Below, piece by piece: positions 34,347-41,060 of a stretch of DNA of 64,000 nucleotides. The notes under the pieces are model-generated. The model ran no database searches and was not told where the DNA came from. It saw only the letters and a program-made list of their open reading frames with translations. The DNA lies in assembly GCF_014837175.1 (NCBI RefSeq), contig NZ_JACYFR010000001.1, positions 1 through 64,000 on the forward strand, read 5' to 3'. This DNA comes from Cellulomonas sp. JH27-2 (GTDB lineage: Bacteria; Actinomycetota; Actinomycetes; Actinomycetales; Cellulomonadaceae). Made by a program: the position numbers and the translations under genes. How positions within the stretch are numbered: the stretch's first letter is position 1; every line of letters begins with the position of its first letter.

Positions 34347-36950
34347 TCAGACCGGGGCGCCGAAGCAGACGAGCGGGACGAGGGCGCCCGTCGCGTCGCG
34401 GTCCTCGCTGGTCGCCTGGGCGAGCGCCCGAGCGACGGGGACGTCGTCGCGCAGCAGCTGGTGCGTGCGCGTCATGACCCGCCGCGCGGTCTCGTCGGGC
34501 AGCGGCGCCAACGCCGCGACCACGCACCCGACGCCCTGGCGCAGCAGCACGCTCGCCATCCCGAGCGCCTCTCCCCCCGCGCGGATGCTGGCGCGGCCCA
34601 CCTCGCAGGACGACAACAGCACGAGGTCCGGCACGGACCCGCCCGTGTCGAGCTCGTGCGCGAACAGCGGGCCGTCGGCCAGTCGCACCGACGAGAACAG
34701 CGGGTTGTCGGGCTCGTGCCGACCGTGCGCGGCGAGATGGACGATCCCGGGAGACGCGAGCAGCTCGATCATGCGCGCGACGGTCGCGTCCTCGCCGACC
34801 ACCGCCTCTCCCCCGGGCCACAGGTCGGCGACCTCGCGGACCTCGGCCTCGGCGTGACGCAGGCCGGGACCGGCCGCCGCGCGGATGCGCACCGGCGGCA
34901 GGGCGGCCGAGCCGGCGTACCGCATCCAGTGGTGGACCGACGGTGCGACCACCGTCGACGAGCCGATCCGCGACGGCAGCAGCGACCAGGGCAGGACCCC
35001 CAACCAGCCCCCCGCGACCACCACCAGCTCGCCCGACGAGGGCAGGACCGGCGACAGACTCTCCTCCAGGCGCGCCAGGCACGCGTCCAACGACCTGTCG
35101 GCGACCGCGCGCAGCTCGGCCGGGACCAGCGGGTTCGCGACGACCTCGAGGTCGGCGTGCACGCGTCGCACCTGCTCCGCCACGTGGGCCGCGGGACCGA
35201 GCTCGTGCAGCGTCGCCACCCGGCCGTCGACGAGGACCGCGACCAGCTCACCCCGGTGCTCGACGACGTCGAGCAGCACGACGTCGCCCCGCTCGCCGAC
35301 GGCCTCGACCACGGCGGGCGCCCGCGGAGCACGCTCGGCCCGCGCGCTGCCCTGCTCGTGCCACGACCGGGCCAGGATCTCGTGCTTGAGGCGACGCTCC
35401 TCACGCAGGTGCTGCACGCGGACCGGGTCGCTCGCGGGCAGCGACGGCGCGGCGCGACCTTCGTCGACGAGCCGGCGCAGCTGCCACAGCAGCGTCGCGG
35501 TCTCCGGGTCGGACGGCGGCCGCACGCGCGGCGACCCTCCGATCACCGCCCGCACCCGCTCGGTCGCCTCCAGCACCGCACCCGCCCGCTCGGTGCTCAG
35601 CGCGATCTGCATGTCGAGGTCGGCGAGCGCCGACCCGTGCACCGCACCCGCCGTACGCAGGTCCAGCGAGCCGAACCGGGCGCGGTGCATCTCGAGGTCC
35701 TGCTGACCGGCCCGGACGTGCTCGCCGGCGCTGATCCGCTCGCCGGCCGCGAGCGCGAGCATCGCCCGGATGCGCCGGCCGTGCAGGCGCACGGGCAGCG
35801 GGTCGTCGGTACGCACCGGGCCCAGGTCCTCGAGCAGGCCGCCGGGATCGGGCATGGCACCACGCGCGATGTCCGCCTCGATGCGGACGTAGGCGGCGGC
35901 GTCCTGCCACACCCGCCGCCCGGTCTGTGCGCACAGGTGCTCGAGCTCGGTCGCGCGACGCGCCAGGGCCGTCCAGGCCGCCCGCGTACCTGCCGGACCT
36001 GCGGCGAAGTCGGCGGCGTCGGCCTGCAGCCCCAGCAGGGCGGCGCGCACGGCCCACGCCTCGTCGCCGCGCCGGCGGAACCGCCGCCGCGCGGACGCCG
36101 CGAAAGCCCGCGCCGCGGGAAGGTCGCCGCGCAGCAGCGCGCACTCCGCGCGCCCCAGCTCGCACTCCGCGACGTCGCGGGTCAGACGACGTCGCGCGAA
36201 CATCGCGGCGGCCTCGGCGAGCGTCGCGTCGGCGACGCTGACCAGACCCGCCTCGAGCAGGACGTCGCTGCGGTCCCGCAGCGCCGTGGGTCGGGGCGGT
36301 CCGGGCAGCGAGCGCGCCGCCTCCTCCATGCTCGCGAGCGCCTCAGGCAGCTGACCGGCGTAGAAGTGCACGTACCCGAGGTTGTGCTCGGCCTTGAACC
36401 GCAACAGCTCGAAGCCCCCCTCGCCCGCCCGACGCGCGCACTCCGTGAGGTCGGCGCGCGCGAGCGTGATCTCCCGGCGTTCGAGCTGCAGCACGCCGCG
36501 GTTGAGCAGGGCTCGGCAGACGTCGACGGCATCGGCCACCGCGGAGGCGTCGACCGTCGCCGTGAGCAGCCGCAACGCCTCGTCGTGCCGCCCCGCTCGC
36601 ACCGCGGCCAGCCCGCGCATACCGTCGACCGCCGGCCGCAGACCGGGCCAGACGTCAGCCGCCCCCGCAGCCAGCATCGCGTCGAGCCGCTCCTCCGCCA
36701 CGCGCGTCCGGCTGCCCGTCTCCGTCTCGCTCTTGGCCAGCTCGGTCAGGGCCCGCGCGCGGACGCGCACCACCGCCTCGGCACGATCCGCGGGGTCGAT
36801 GCCGTCGAGCTGCTCGAGCGCGACACCCAGGCGACGACGCGCACTCTCCGGACGCCCTTCCGCGTTGTCCCTCTCGGCACGACGAACCGCCCCGACGACG
36901 GCGTCGAGGGACGACGGCCCGGCGGCCGCCGGTCCGTGCTTCGCGGGCAT
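34347..36950 (-). CDS. TPR-CHAT caspase-like protease
   Basis: The 867-residue protein has an N-terminal half of helical, TPR-like repeats (for example about 155-245, ALLNRGVLQLERREITLARA and HNLGYVHFYAGQLPEALASM) and a C-terminal CHAT domain (about 590-867). The caspase-type dyad is visible: His742 in IVHLAAHGRH and Cys782 in LVLLSSCEVGRAS. CHAT domains are cysteine peptidases used in signalling, defence and cell death; the substrate is unknown. ATG at 36950 follows AAAGGA; the longer upstream frame runs through the preceding genes and is rejected. It is the last gene of a three-gene operon with an ECF-like sigma factor and a small regulatory-type protein, which suggests that cleavage controls the sigma factor. 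Confidence 0.9.
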   Translation of the reverse strand: MPAKHGPAAAGPSSLDAVVGAVRRAERDNAEGRPESARRRLGVALEQLDGIDPADRAEAVVRVRARALTELAKSETETGSRTRVAEERLDAMLAAGAADVWPGLRPAVDGMRGLAAVRAGRHDEALRLLTATVDASAVADAVDVCRALLNRGVLQLERREITLARADLTECARRAGEGGFELLRFKAEHNLGYVHFYAGQLPEALASMEEAARSLPGPPRPTALRDRSDVLLEAGLVSVADATLAEAAAMFARRRLTRDVAECELGRAECALLRGDLPAARAFAASARRRFRRRGDEAWAVRAALLGLQADAADFAAGPAGTRAAWTALARRATELEHLCAQTGRRVWQDAAAYVRIEADIARGAMPDPGGLLEDLGPVRTDDPLPVRLHGRRIRAMLALAAGERISAGEHVRAGQQDLEMHRARFGSLDLRTAGAVHGSALADLDMQIALSTERAGAVLEATERVRAVIGGSPRVRPPSDPETATLLWQLRRLVDEGRAAPSLPASDPVRVQHLREERRLKHEILARSWHEQGSARAERAPRAPAVVEAVGERGDVVLLDVVEHRGELVAVLVDGRVATLHELGPAAHVAEQVRRVHADLEVVANPLVPAELRAVADRSLDACLARLEESLSPVLPSSGELVVVAGGWLGVLPWSLLPSRIGSSTVVAPSVHHWMRYAGSAALPPVRIRAAAGPGLRHAEAEVREVADLWPGGEAVVGEDATVARMIELLASPGIVHLAAHGRHEPDNPLFSSVRLADGPLFAHELDTGGSVPDLVLLSSCEVGRASIRAGGEALGMASVLLRQGVGCVVAALAPLPDETARRVMTRTHQLLRDDVPVARALAQATSEDRDATGALVPLVCFGAPV

Positions 36951-36958
36951 GGGTTCCT

Positions 36959-37462
36959 TTACAGCTCGATCTGAGGCGTCACCACGGGGACGGTGGGCTC
37001 GGACAGACGACGCAGCACCAGCCTGGCAGGTCCGCGCTCGATGTCGACGAACGAGAACCGCCCGTCGTCGTCGGAGATCGTGGAGATGACCTCCGCGCCC
37101 TGGTGCAGCTCGACGTCGATGGCCTCGGCCGGGGCGGCCCAGCCGTCGACACGCACCCGGCCGGCTTCGGCGTGCACCGAGATCATGACGGTCAGGACGT
37201 CGGTCGTGAACGTGATCGTGCCGGCCTCGATGCTCGTCTCGTCGGTGCGCACCGCGAGCGCGAGCTCGCCGTCCAGGCGGAGCTCGGCGACGTCCGCGTG
37301 CAGCGCCTCGATCGTCAGGGCCATGCCGATCCGGTCGACCAGGCCCGCCGGCACGGGATCCGTGTCCTCGACCATCCGGGCCAGGCTCTCGAAGACCTCG
37401 CGGTCCAGCTCGTCCAGCACTCCTGCCGCCAGGAGGGCGACCGTGGCGTCGTCGTTGCTCAT
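36959..37462 (-). CDS. Small protein with carboxypeptidase-regulatory-like beta domain
   Basis: This 167-residue protein lies between sigma and CHAT genes. From ATG 37462 (MSNDDATVALLAAGVLDEL) the first 60 residues are helical and acidic, reminiscent of small anti-sigma-like helices, with no membrane segment. The middle and C-terminus are beta strands ending in a fold like carboxypeptidase-regulatory/transthyretin-like domains (GWAAPAEAIDVELHQG, DDDGRFSFVDIERGPARLVL, VTPQIEL). Its start overlaps the sigma stop by 4 bases (ATGA) and it ends 8 bases before the CHAT start, so the three are probably co-translated. By position it is the best candidate for a sigma-binding partner and CHAT substrate; that is inference. 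Confidence 0.8.
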   Translation of the reverse strand: MSNDDATVALLAAGVLDELDREVFESLARMVEDTDPVPAGLVDRIGMALTIEALHADVAELRLDGELALAVRTDETSIEAGTITFTTDVLTVMISVHAEAGRVRVDGWAAPAEAIDVELHQGAEVISTISDDDGRFSFVDIERGPARLVLRRLSEPTVPVVTPQIEL

Positions 37463-38091
37463 GACAGGCTCCAGGTGGGGTCGGCGTCGAGGGCGGCGCG
37501 CAGCTTGCCGAGGCACCGGCCACGCGTGGGGCCGATGCTTCCGACCGGCATCCCCAGCGCCTGGGAGACGACCGTGTAGTCAGGGCGTTCGACGAGGGCC
37601 ACGAGCCCGAGCAGCTTGCGGCACCGGTCCGGAAGCGCCCGCACGTGGTTCCACAGCGCCTGGTCGCGCTCGCTGCGGACCGCGACCGAGTCAGGCAGGT
37701 CCTCGACGGGCGCGGTCAGCCACTCGGTCGCGTTCTCGTCGGCCGCCTGCCGCACGTGCTCGTCGCGGCTGCGCCGGACCGAGCGCCAGGCGGCGCGCTT
37801 GGCGGTGACGAGCATCCACTGCAACGTGGCGCGGGGGTCGCGGATCTGCTCGATGTCCCGCACCAGCGTGAGCCACACGTTCTGCACGATGTCTTGGGCC
37901 TGCTCCGGGTCGGCACCCTGCGCCCGCACCGTGTGCCAGAGCAGCGGGGTCATGACCTGCACGAGCGCAGCGAGCTGGCCGCGGTCTCCGGCTCGGTAGG
38001 CCAGCACCGCTCGGGCGGCCTGGTCGGCCAACCCATCCCCCTGGTCGCGGAGCGCGGTGTCCACCGGCTCCACCAGGTCGTCACTCATCAT
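37459..38091 (-). CDS. ECF-type RNA polymerase sigma factor
   Basis: The 210-residue product has a sigma region 2 (about 45-115: AQDIVQNVWLTLVRDIEQI, TLQWMLVTAKRAAWRSVRR) and a region 4 helix-turn-helix (about 145-205: LPDRCRKLLGLVALV, SQALGMPVGSIGPTRGRCLG), with no region 1 or 3, as in ECF sigma factors. Start at one of two adjacent ATGs (38091 or 38088), with GAGGGG 5-8 bases upstream. It is first in an operon with the small protein and TPR-CHAT protease and is divergent from the trypsin-like protease gene. No membrane anti-sigma gene is adjacent. Confidence 0.93.
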   Translation of the reverse strand: MMSDDLVEPVDTALRDQGDGLADQAARAVLAYRAGDRGQLAALVQVMTPLLWHTVRAQGADPEQAQDIVQNVWLTLVRDIEQIRDPRATLQWMLVTAKRAAWRSVRRSRDEHVRQAADENATEWLTAPVEDLPDSVAVRSERDQALWNHVRALPDRCRKLLGLVALVERPDYTVVSQALGMPVGSIGPTRGRCLGKLRAALDADPTWSLS

Positions 38092-38419
38092 GGAACCCCT
38101 CACAGCGGGCCTCGTCGGGCGGCCGCCCTGCTCAGACTAGGGCGACCCGGATGACCCGGACAAGGAACGGCGCGCAGCCCGGGTGCCGGTGCCCGGGCGG
38201 CAGCGCGGGCAGGCGGCATGGACAGACGCTCCTCGACCAGGAACGCCGGGAAGGAGCACGCACCCGGCCACCAGATACATGCAGTCCACGATCTCTGCCC
38301 TCTTTCTTGCGCCGCGGTGTATCTGGGCCGGTCGTGCGCGCTCCTGACCTGGTGCCGCACCCCCGGGAGACCGCGTGCAGCACGCCCCGTTCGAGCCCGA
38401 CGCCAGGAGAGACCGCGAG
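38092..38419. other. Divergent regulatory region between sigma and protease operons
   Basis: No gene is seen. The stretch should hold promoters for both directions. Its main feature is a perfect 9-bp inverted repeat (38271-38279 and 38318-38326). On each strand the unit reads TGTATCTGG and contains TATCTG, a possible -10, but no matching -35 elements are obvious. Confidence 0.5.
38271..38326. repeat. Widely spaced 9-bp inverted repeat TGTATCTGG
   Basis: CCAGATACA at 38271-38279 is the exact reverse complement of TGTATCTGG at 38318-38326, with 38 bases between. The pair sits in the middle of the divergent region. It could be a pair of operator sites or the -10 regions of two divergent promoters read by the same sigma factor. 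Confidence 0.6.
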
Positions 38420-40195
38420 ATGAGCGAGCACGAGAGCGCCACGCCGGCGGACGCCGCCGACCAGATCCGACCGACGAAGCGCCGCGTGGAGGATGCCCTG
38501 CTGGCCAGGCCCGGTGTGGTCGGTGTCGACATCGCCGAGAAGTGGTCCGACGGCCGTCCGACCGGTCAGCAGGCGATCGTGGTGCACGTGGTCGCGAAGC
38601 GCGACCACGGTGACCTGGGGGCGGACGAGCTCGTCCCGCCGTCGTTCGACGGCATCCCGACGGACGTCGTTGCCCGGGTCGTGCGCCCCCTGTCCGTCCA
38701 GGAGTCCGACCCGCCGCAGGTCGACGACGAAGGACCGACGACGCGCCGGCGCACGCGGCCGCTGGCCGGCGGCCTCAGCTTCGGTCCCGCCGACGCCGTG
38801 ACGATCCCCGTCGACGGGATCGCGCAGCGCCGGACCGTCAACGGGACGCTCGGCGCACTCGTCGTCGAGCGTCACACGGGGCGCCTCATGGCGCTGACCA
38901 ACTGGCACGTGGCGGCGGGCGACGGGCTCGAGGACCTCGGCAGCACCTGGATCCAGCCGGCCCTCGCCGACGACGGCGACCCGCGCTCCGACCGCGTCGG
39001 CGCGCTGGTGCGCGGCACGCTCACCGACCGGATCGACGCCGCGCTCGTGGCCATCGCTCCCGGAGCGCCGTGGCTGCCTGGGATCGTGGGCATCGGTGCC
39101 GTGACGGGTGCCGCGCCCGCCGTCACCGGTACGACCGTCCGCAAGAGCGGGCGCACGACGGGCCTGCGCACGGGCGTCGTCACGTCCGTGGACTACACGA
39201 CGTCGGTGGACTTCGGCCCGGGGATCGGCTGGCACACCCTGCGCGATCAGGTCCGCGTCGAGCCCGAGGCCGGCGGCCAGGCTTTCTCGGCGGGGGGCGA
39301 CTCCGGGTCCGTGGTGGTCGACGAGGAGGGGCGCGTCGTGGCGTTGCTGTGGGCCGGGGAGGACGACGGCAGCTTCTCGGTGGCCAGCCCGATCGCGGTC
39401 GTGCTCGACACTCTGGGGATCGATGTCCTCGACGTCCGCACGGCCCGGGCGCTGCTGGCCGCCCAGGCGCGTGCCGCGCGCGCCCGGAAGGTGCAGGCGA
39501 TCAGCCCGTGGGCGGCGTCGCTGCCCCCGATCTCGTCCGTCTACCGGGGTGTCTCGACCTGGGGCGCGCGGCCGCCCGCCGGTGCGCGGAGCCGGTCGGC
39601 TGCAGCCCGGCCGACGTTCCGCCCGACCTGGACGTCGTCCCCTGCCGCGGGTGCGGCGTCGTCCGACGGTGCGGCACCGGGTCGGCCGACGGGGAGCGCT
39701 CGCACGCACGACGGCGCGTCGACGGAACCGTTCACCGAACCTTTCACGGAGCCCTTCACCGAGCCGTTCACGGAGCCGTTCACCGAACCGTTCACCGAGG
39801 CCCTCGGGACCAACCCGTTCACCGAACCCTTCACCGAGCCCTTCACCGAACCGTTCACCGAACCGTTCACCGAGGCCCTCGGGACCAACCCGTTCACCGA
39901 ACCCTTCACCGAGCCCTTCACCGAACCGTTCACGGAACCCTTCACGGAACCGTTCACCGAGGCCCTCGGCACCAACCCCTTCACCGAACCCTTCACCGAA
40001 CCCTTCACCGAGCCCTTCACCGAACCGTTCACGGAACCCTTCACCGAGCCGTTCACCGAGTCCGCCGGCACCGCATTCACAGCGTCGCTCGCGTCCGCCT
40101 CGCCGCGCACGCAGGCCCGCGTGATCGCGGCGATCCGGGCCCGGGAGATCTTCTGGGCGGGCTTCATCGCCGCGGCGACGCGACGAGCGCGGTGA
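38420..40195 (+). CDS. Nal1-like trypsin-fold serine protease with EPFT repeat tail
   Basis: The 591-residue protein from ATG 38420 (AGGAG about 10 bases upstream) has no signal peptide. Residues about 20-95 form the small domain seen in front of Nal1-like proteases (RPGVVGVDIAEKWSDG, PPSFDGIPTDVV). The trypsin-like domain (about 115-335) shows the triad His163 (TNWHVAAG), Asp206 (DRIDAALVAI) and Ser295 (GGDSGSVVV), plus RKSGRTTGLRTGVV. A Ser/Ala/Pro/Arg-rich linker (about 380-435) leads to 111 residues of EPFT/NPFT tetrapeptides (436-546), then a 45-residue tail with a hydrophobic helix (IFWAGFIAAA). It is divergent from the sigma-CHAT operon and followed by an APH-like gene. Confidence 0.9.
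   Translation: MSEHESATPADAADQIRPTKRRVEDALLARPGVVGVDIAEKWSDGRPTGQQAIVVHVVAKRDHGDLGADELVPPSFDGIPTDVVARVVRPLSVQESDPPQVDDEGPTTRRRTRPLAGGLSFGPADAVTIPVDGIAQRRTVNGTLGALVVERHTGRLMALTNWHVAAGDGLEDLGSTWIQPALADDGDPRSDRVGALVRGTLTDRIDAALVAIAPGAPWLPGIVGIGAVTGAAPAVTGTTVRKSGRTTGLRTGVVTSVDYTTSVDFGPGIGWHTLRDQVRVEPEAGGQAFSAGGDSGSVVVDEEGRVVALLWAGEDDGSFSVASPIAVVLDTLGIDVLDVRTARALLAAQARAARARKVQAISPWAASLPPISSVYRGVSTWGARPPAGARSRSAAARPTFRPTWTSSPAAGAASSDGAAPGRPTGSARTHDGASTEPFTEPFTEPFTEPFTEPFTEPFTEALGTNPFTEPFTEPFTEPFTEPFTEALGTNPFTEPFTEPFTEPFTEPFTEPFTEALGTNPFTEPFTEPFTEPFTEPFTEPFTEPFTESAGTAFTASLASASPRTQARVIAAIRAREIFWAGFIAAATRRAR
39725..40057 (+). repeat. Coding 12-bp tandem repeat: 24 EPFT/NPFT units
   Basis: Blocks of 6, then NPFT+4, NPFT+5 and NPFT+6 EPFT units are separated by EALGT, giving 21 EPFT and 3 NPFT tetrapeptides in 111 residues. 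The DNA units vary at third positions (GAA/GAG, CCG/CCC/CCT, ACC/ACG; TTC is constant), so this is an older protein-level repeat, not a fresh slippage product. Block lengths differ, which points to unit gain and loss. Confidence 0.95.
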
Positions 40196-40256: not shown

Positions 40257-41060
40257 ATGACGATCCCGACCACGTCAGTCGACGACACCGACCTGGTGCC
40301 CGTCCCGCTGCGGCGGAGCCTGCGGCTCCTGCCGGGCGACGGCGCAGCGGTGCACGCTGCACGGCCCCTCGTCCGCGAGCTCGAGGACCTCACCGACGCC
40401 ATGCACGAGCGCGGTGCCACGGCGCGCTTGCGGTCGGACCTGGTGGACCTGCTCGGGTGCTGGGCACAGGCGCTCGTCGGCCTGCACCGCAGCAGCGTCA
40501 CCATGCTGACGCCTGTCGGCGAGCTGCCCTGGGTGCTGGCCGACGGCCTGCCGGCGTGGCTCGACGAGCTCCCCCGTGAGGCGGGGCCCGTGTGGGCGGT
40601 CCGCGCTCACCCGGCGATCCGGCGGGCGCTCGACGACACCCGCCGGGCCTGGTCCGCGGTCCAGCTGACCCACGGTGACCCGACCGGCGACGCCGTCGAC
40701 GTCACCCGTTCGGCCGCCGAGGTGGAAGCGCGGCTGACACCGACCGGATCGGCGCGGGCGGGCGTCCTCGGCGACCCGCGCTGGGACGTCGCGACTGTCG
40801 TCGACTGGCTCGCGTGCGCGCTCGATCCGGCGCTCGACCCGGTGTGGGGCATCGACCCTGCCGCGACCTTCGTCGCGCGCTACCGGGCCCACGGCGGTGA
40901 CGCGCTGCCGTCCCGCGCGATGGCGGCCGCCCGCACGCTGACGACCGCCGTCGAGTGGACCGCTCAGCTCGCGGTCCTGCAGGAGCCCGACGAGGAGGAG
41001 CTCGCCTGGCTCGCCGGGCTGTGGGGACGCCCGCTCTCGCTCGTGGCGCCCGGGGGCTGA
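40257..41060 (+). CDS. APH-like protein, probably a degenerate kinase
   Basis: The 267-residue protein is cytoplasmic by composition. Its C-terminal half follows the aminoglycoside phosphotransferase pattern: QLTHGDPTGDAVDV (His139-Gly-Asp141) where active enzymes have HGDxxxxN, and AGVLGDPRWDVATVVDWL (170-184) where they have GLGDPxxDLA. The conserved Asn is replaced by Asp and the second catalytic segment (usually IDWE) is not visible, so phosphotransfer activity is doubtful. The first 110 residues show no P-loop. It starts 61 bases after the protease gene on the same strand and is probably co-expressed. The family assignment is by pattern only. Confidence 0.6.
   Translation: MTIPTTSVDDTDLVPVPLRRSLRLLPGDGAAVHAARPLVRELEDLTDAMHERGATARLRSDLVDLLGCWAQALVGLHRSSVTMLTPVGELPWVLADGLPAWLDELPREAGPVWAVRAHPAIRRALDDTRRAWSAVQLTHGDPTGDAVDVTRSAAEVEARLTPTGSARAGVLGDPRWDVATVVDWLACALDPALDPVWGIDPAATFVARYRAHGGDALPSRAMAAARTLTTAVEWTAQLAVLQEPDEEELAWLAGLWGRPLSLVAPGG

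Follow-up and report, generated by a model that had tools for sequence, protein, structure and literature searches.

We describe a gene set on the first 64,000 nucleotides of contig NZ_JACYFR010000001.1 of Cellulomonas sp. JH27-2 (the window) that may constitute a proteolytic transcription switch. It consists of an extracytoplasmic function (ECF) sigma factor (SIG), a small protein (SMALL), a tetratricopeptide repeat (TPR)-CHAT protease (CHAT) and a divergently encoded trypsin-like protease (TRYP). We propose that SMALL holds SIG, that CHAT cuts SMALL, and that the SIG protein freed in this way transcribes the operon together with the gene for the second protease, a reading that we consider just probable. 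The gene order, its conservation, the co-occurrence of the genes, a catalytic dyad and a paired promoter-like motif can be read directly from the genomes. The genes are located as follows:

37459 to 38091, minus strand: SIG, ECF sigma factor of 210 amino acids (TIGR02937 and PF04542 above cut-off, nearest PDB sequence SigW)
36959 to 37462, minus strand: SMALL, candidate anti-sigma factor of 167 amino acids (two helices, a junction loop with the invariant Arg72 and a CarboxypepD_reg-like beta domain)
34347 to 36950, minus strand: TPR-CHAT protease of 867 amino acids (PF12770; His742/Cys782 dyad)
38420 to 40195, plus strand: TRYP, trypsin-like (NAL1-like) protease of 591 amino acids, divergent from SIG (PF13365 and PF25819 below cut-off; His, Asp and Ser motifs)

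All three genes that a first-pass annotation had claimed at 34347-38091 were found at this place on the minus strand. They are tightly spaced, as the start codon of SMALL lies within the stop codon of SIG (ATGA overlap) and only 8 nucleotides separate the stop of SMALL from the start of CHAT. SIG scored 46.9 bits against the sigma70-ECF profile TIGR02937 (cut-off 42.9) and 31.2 bits against the region 2 profile PF04542 (cut-off 24), and the assignment as an ECF-type sigma factor was thus upheld by curated cut-offs. The assignment of CHAT was also correct: it matched PF12770 with an E-value of 3e-26 and contains TPRs, and the proposed residues His742 and Cys782 did not vary among the aligned homologues (47 of 47). 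TRYP was absent from the first-pass annotation and is part of the gene set.

The order TRYP, SIG, SMALL, CHAT was kept in the genomes of all 15 species of the genus carrying the trypsin version except one (G032), and TRYP was found in 15 of these 15. A first look across the class, in which only 12 candidates per genome were scored, gave a SMALL match in 76 of 297 genomes. From these matches and an earlier search, 44 loci outside the genus set of the module were collected. In 42 of them SIG immediately preceded SMALL, in 33 CHAT lay within the stretch read, and many had a subtilase gene (PF00082) that was either next to SIG or flanked by SMALL and CHAT. In family f38 the SIG-SMALL pair had no linked CHAT; a CHAT homologue was present elsewhere in the genome in 18 of the 19 genomes searched, and the sole genome lacking it is 75% complete. 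Sixty seemingly SMALL-negative genomes were searched for CHAT, with 13 matches. A diverged SIG-SMALL pair stood beside CHAT in all 12 neighbourhoods read (the thirteenth match was weak and partial and was left unread), and the idea that SMALL is missing from some CHAT-bearing genomes was therefore false. Because of this near-perfect co-occurrence, which includes unlinked CHAT, we concluded that SIG, SMALL and CHAT form a functional set and not an accident of gene order. As judged from the genomes, the operon order, which is conserved across 15 species of the genus as well as among many other actinomycetes, is well beyond chance, and many soil actinobacteria carry this fixed gene set.

The description of SMALL as a two-part protein agreed with the AlphaFold model of a relative (L136), which has two N-terminal helices, a short irregular loop and a seven-stranded C-terminal beta domain. 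SMALL matched CarboxypepD_reg (PF13620) weakly, with an E-value of 0.002 and below the cut-off, and 37 of 62 members of the SMALL family also showed a weak match in the C-terminal part. The beta domain matched a stretch of NOMO2 in the PDB by sequence (E-value 1e-4). No curated family dedicated to SMALL was found in the profile scans, and neither SMALL nor the 62 family members matched a known anti-sigma domain of Pfam. The close named relatives, retrieved by a profile search of genome contigs with close members as query, are Cellulomonas species. Four residues are shared without exception by 62 of 62 members; in window numbering they are Arg72, Gly107, Gly134 and Phe136. The less confidently predicted loop that joins the helical and beta parts contains Arg72, which because of this position is a candidate cut site and perhaps the point of cleavage.

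The interaction of SIG and SMALL was predicted by co-folding of the L136 pair, which was chosen because SIG and SMALL of the window lie in different frames; the L136 pair shares one frame. It was modelled as one chain with one TAG read as serine, and the composition of the alignment was picked so that no SMALL row was misplaced. The proteins of the window match the families of this pair by profile, with 237 bits for SIG and 165 bits for SMALL. The model had a mean predicted local distance difference test score (pLDDT) of 85.9 and a predicted template modelling score (pTM) of 0.70, compared to a pTM of 0.48 for SIG alone with identical SIG rows. Since about 18% of the residues had a pLDDT below 70, this pTM implies that most ordered residues, including those of SMALL, are confidently placed relative to each other. 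The Foldseek target TM-scores to sigma factors from structures with a bound anti-sigma factor were 0.69 with SMALL and 0.50 without SMALL to SigW-RsiW, 0.71 and 0.49 to CnrH-CnrY, and 0.64 and 0.42 to RpoE-NepR. For RNA-polymerase-bound ECF sigma factors the TM-score was about 0.3-0.4 in the models with and without SMALL. The arrangement resembling the anti-sigma-bound state was seen with SMALL and lost in SIG alone, and in the prediction SMALL thus fixes the sigma factor as anti-sigma factors do. We concluded from this model that SMALL is likely an anti-sigma factor, which supports in silico the role as sigma inhibitor suggested by the first-pass annotation.

An alignment of the SIG-TRYP intergenic region from 14 species revealed two conserved divergent copies of a promoter-like motif, located in the window as follows:

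38252 to 38278, minus strand: GTATC-N16-GCTCCT, facing SIG
38319 to 38345, plus strand: GTATC-N16-GCTCCT, facing TRYP

These were the 2 occurrences observed in the window, compared to 0.02 expected. The 15 genomes with the trypsin-type module had 55 sites, 25 of them in the SIG-TRYP intergenic region, and 15 genomes of the genus without this module (several with the subtilase version) had 16; reversed controls gave 7 and 8 sites. TRYP of G032, which is separated from SIG, retained the motif. Both species with a NAL1-like trypsin paralogue (L082 in G030 and L085 in G033) also carried the motif upstream of that gene. In five species the motif preceded a conserved small basic open reading frame (ORF) with the pattern LDRELRRL.VLHAREV.ARRR (L070, at G000:C4:72051 outside the window; L073, L075, L078 and L080), which in the genome of the window (L070) has a Shine-Dalgarno-like sequence. 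SIG most likely regulates itself as well as TRYP and a small number of further genes.

The motif was also seen near the start of a gene for an MmpL-like transporter in two species (L076, L077), and in close relatives (L071, L072) upstream of a conserved 64-residue ORF (MDELDLENLRVDVTDQD...).

The proposed course of events is as follows. At rest, the two N-terminal helices of SMALL would bind SIG and hold sigma domains 2 and 4 together, and SIG held by SMALL would not engage RNA polymerase and DNA. A signal sensed by the TPR part would activate the CHAT protease, which would cut SMALL, perhaps at Arg72 between the helical and the beta part, and thereby release SIG. From the GTATC-N16-GCTCCT promoters, free SIG would then transcribe the operon to which it belongs as well as the divergently oriented gene for the protease. 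The output would be a second protease (trypsin-like in the window, subtilase in many other lineages) and a few small genes. In this scheme we infer inhibition, cleavage, the signal and the physiological role, and the SIG-SMALL complex is a prediction. Cleavage of SMALL by CHAT, the other role proposed for SMALL by the first-pass annotation, is plausible, and we rate it as even to slightly favourable.

Several points weigh against this scheme. TRYP or the subtilase could be the protease that acts on SMALL. The co-fold rests on the proteins of one relative, joined in a single chain by translating a stop codon as serine; it was judged from pTM, pLDDT and Foldseek scores, with three paired rows only, and its control was SIG alone. 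The promoter-like motif lacks GGAAC and is not a classical ECF motif, and the subtilase-type loci of the genus showed no copy of it upstream of SIG. Outside the intergenic region its sites were only about twice as many as in the other genomes (30 versus 16), so that no tight genome-wide regulon could be drawn.

Four other explanations were considered. SMALL could be an anti-sigma factor that is cut by the second protease, trypsin-like or subtilase, with CHAT as the upstream activator of this protease or as a downstream effector. A gene for a second protease does belong to the set, its slot is kept despite the change of family, and its promoter motif forms a pair with that of SIG in the trypsin version. 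However, it is CHAT that co-occurs with SIG-SMALL even when unlinked (a count made for CHAT only), and since TRYP appears to be a target of SIG, a role as output or feedback suits it better than one as trigger. We therefore regard this explanation as unlikely. Alternatively, the proteases could act on SIG itself, with SMALL as an adaptor or scaffold by which SIG is brought to CHAT. For the ECF54 group, control by proteolysis in the absence of an anti-sigma factor has already been proposed (PMC8999054), and the beta domain of SMALL could serve as a docking platform. The sigma arrangement predicted with SMALL, however, corresponds to the one in anti-sigma complexes and disappears when SMALL is omitted, which makes a role as adaptor rather improbable. 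Still less probable is a reading in which SMALL acts positively on SIG, as a partner or by stabilizing it, and CHAT ends the response by removing SMALL: the predicted complex is compatible with either sign of effect, as is the adjacency of the genes, but the model resembles inhibitory complexes and is matched poorly by RNA-polymerase-bound ECF sigma factors. That the genes are merely co-transcribed and share a stress role without any direct switch is very improbable in view of the near-perfect co-occurrence, including the unlinked cases, and of the structure prediction.

Returning to the switch in which CHAT releases SIG from SMALL, we tentatively suggest, as somewhat less than an even chance, that it represents a widespread CRISPR-free device of CHAT protease, anti-sigma factor and sigma factor in actinomycetes, with a new family of anti-sigma factors, built of two helices followed by a beta domain like CarboxypepD_reg, and with an output protease that can be exchanged, and that type III-E CRISPR systems may have borrowed or re-invented its logic. 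If true, an ECF group presumed to function with no anti-sigma factor would gain both a mechanism and its missing inhibitor, a new anti-sigma family would have been identified, and sigma release by a caspase-like protease would be a general bacterial signalling device and not a speciality of CRISPR systems. The parts of the module are small, soluble and easily tested in laboratory hosts.

The trypsin and the subtilase versions of the genus are both located between rplA and rplJ, and for this reason the site looks like a stable chromosomal locus with an exchanged output protease. A locus from another genus of the same family (L119) also lies between rplA and rplJ. In G032 (L034 / L173) both versions are nested, with SIG and TRYP of the trypsin type flanking CHAT, SIG and SMALL of the subtilase type, which suggests cassette insertion. 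A reading as a defence island was rejected, as PADLOC gave no match and the rplA-rplJ site is common to both versions in the genus.

TRYP matched PF13365 (E-value 3.5e-5) and PF25819 (E-value 2e-4), both below cut-off, and carries trypsin-like His, Asp and Ser motifs. Its long tail consists of FTEP tetrapeptides interrupted by short spacers such as FTEALGTN and is encoded by a repeat pattern:

39697 to 40078, plus strand: 12-nucleotide repeats encoding the FTEP tail of TRYP

The tail is conserved across the genus (15 to 31 units in those species for which they were counted), and 147 other genomes of the class lacked the encoding pattern. Next to TRYP lies ORF5 (267 amino acids, 40257-41060 of the window, plus strand), which matched no known family and adjoins TRYP in several species.

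In type III-E CRISPR systems (CASP/Craspase, with Csx29, Csx30 and CASP-sigma), Csx29 cuts Csx30, an inhibitor of an ECF sigma factor that in its full-length form blocks DNA binding by the sigma factor (PMC10028731). The first-pass annotation had seen the operon as a mirror of this Csx30-RpoE-Csx29 logic. The likeness of logic stands, with a TPR-CHAT protease and an ECF sigma factor in both, and the helices of SMALL may be a counterpart of the N-terminal part of Csx30, which binds the sigma factor (PMC10028731). Membership of the Csx29 and Csx30 families was not supported: CHAT reached 12.4 bits against the Csx29 model NF041237 (cut-off 300), and Csx29 from the PDB aligned to it over the CHAT core only (E-value 7e-5). 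SMALL retrieved no Csx30-named chain in the PDB search (E-value up to 10) and had no meaningful match in NCBIfam, collections in which the presence of Csx30 is unconfirmed. An assignment to Csx29 or to type III-E CASP was rejected. SMALL also has only 167 amino acids, while Csx30 is cut near residue 428 (PMC10028731). The window module has a conserved second protease and an actinobacterial chromosomal locus, and it lacks Cas7-11 or any other RAMP protein. PF03787 (the RAMP family, which served as test for Cas7-11) was absent from 20 genomes including that of the window, while control genomes were positive; on this basis a link to type III CRISPR was rejected, and the description of the module as CRISPR-free holds for type III.

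Other known systems share parts of the scheme. In CalpL-CalpT-CalpS of type III CRISPR (PMC11417357, PMC12751052), a protease acting on a sigma inhibitor also starts a transcriptional response. CalpL differs in being a CRISPR-linked Lon-SAVED protease that is activated by cyclic tetra-adenylate and is not known to have CHAT or TPR. The EACC2-caspase systems (PMC8195603) also combine a caspase-like protease, an ECF sigma factor and a TPR protein in one neighbourhood, but have EACC2, TRADD-N and variable effectors, which were unmatched in our scans. NepR and cytosolic CnrY, which are short soluble anti-sigma domains, have a short helical sigma-binding part, as proposed for SMALL, and the modelled sigma factor resembles theirs; SMALL differs by its additional C-terminal beta domain, and no match to a known anti-sigma family was detected for it.

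The closest published context is the ECF54 group (Huang 2015; Casas-Pastor 2021), for which PMC8999054 names proteins with CHAT, subtilase and 'carboxypeptidase' domains as conserved neighbours. The same neighbourhood was found here, with CHAT and CarboxypepD_reg in the family and, in other clades as well as further species of the genus, subtilase; in the window, trypsin occupies the place of the subtilase. Because the locus fits this context, the gene association itself is not new. No description of the trypsin-like version, the promoter motif or the rplA-rplJ locus was found in the literature searched, in so far as it was accessible and with the two primary ECF54 papers outside the search. 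The 'carboxypeptidase' domain of ECF54 is most simply the CarboxypepD_reg domain of SMALL, a regulatory-like fold and not a peptidase. Both systems thus have an ECF sigma factor with such neighbours and a proposed proteolytic control, and they differ in that the group is treated, as summarized in PMC8999054, as lacking an anti-sigma factor, whereas SMALL is proposed here to be one. What is added to the ECF54 record is that SMALL is most simply the 'carboxypeptidase' protein and is predicted to be the missing anti-sigma factor.

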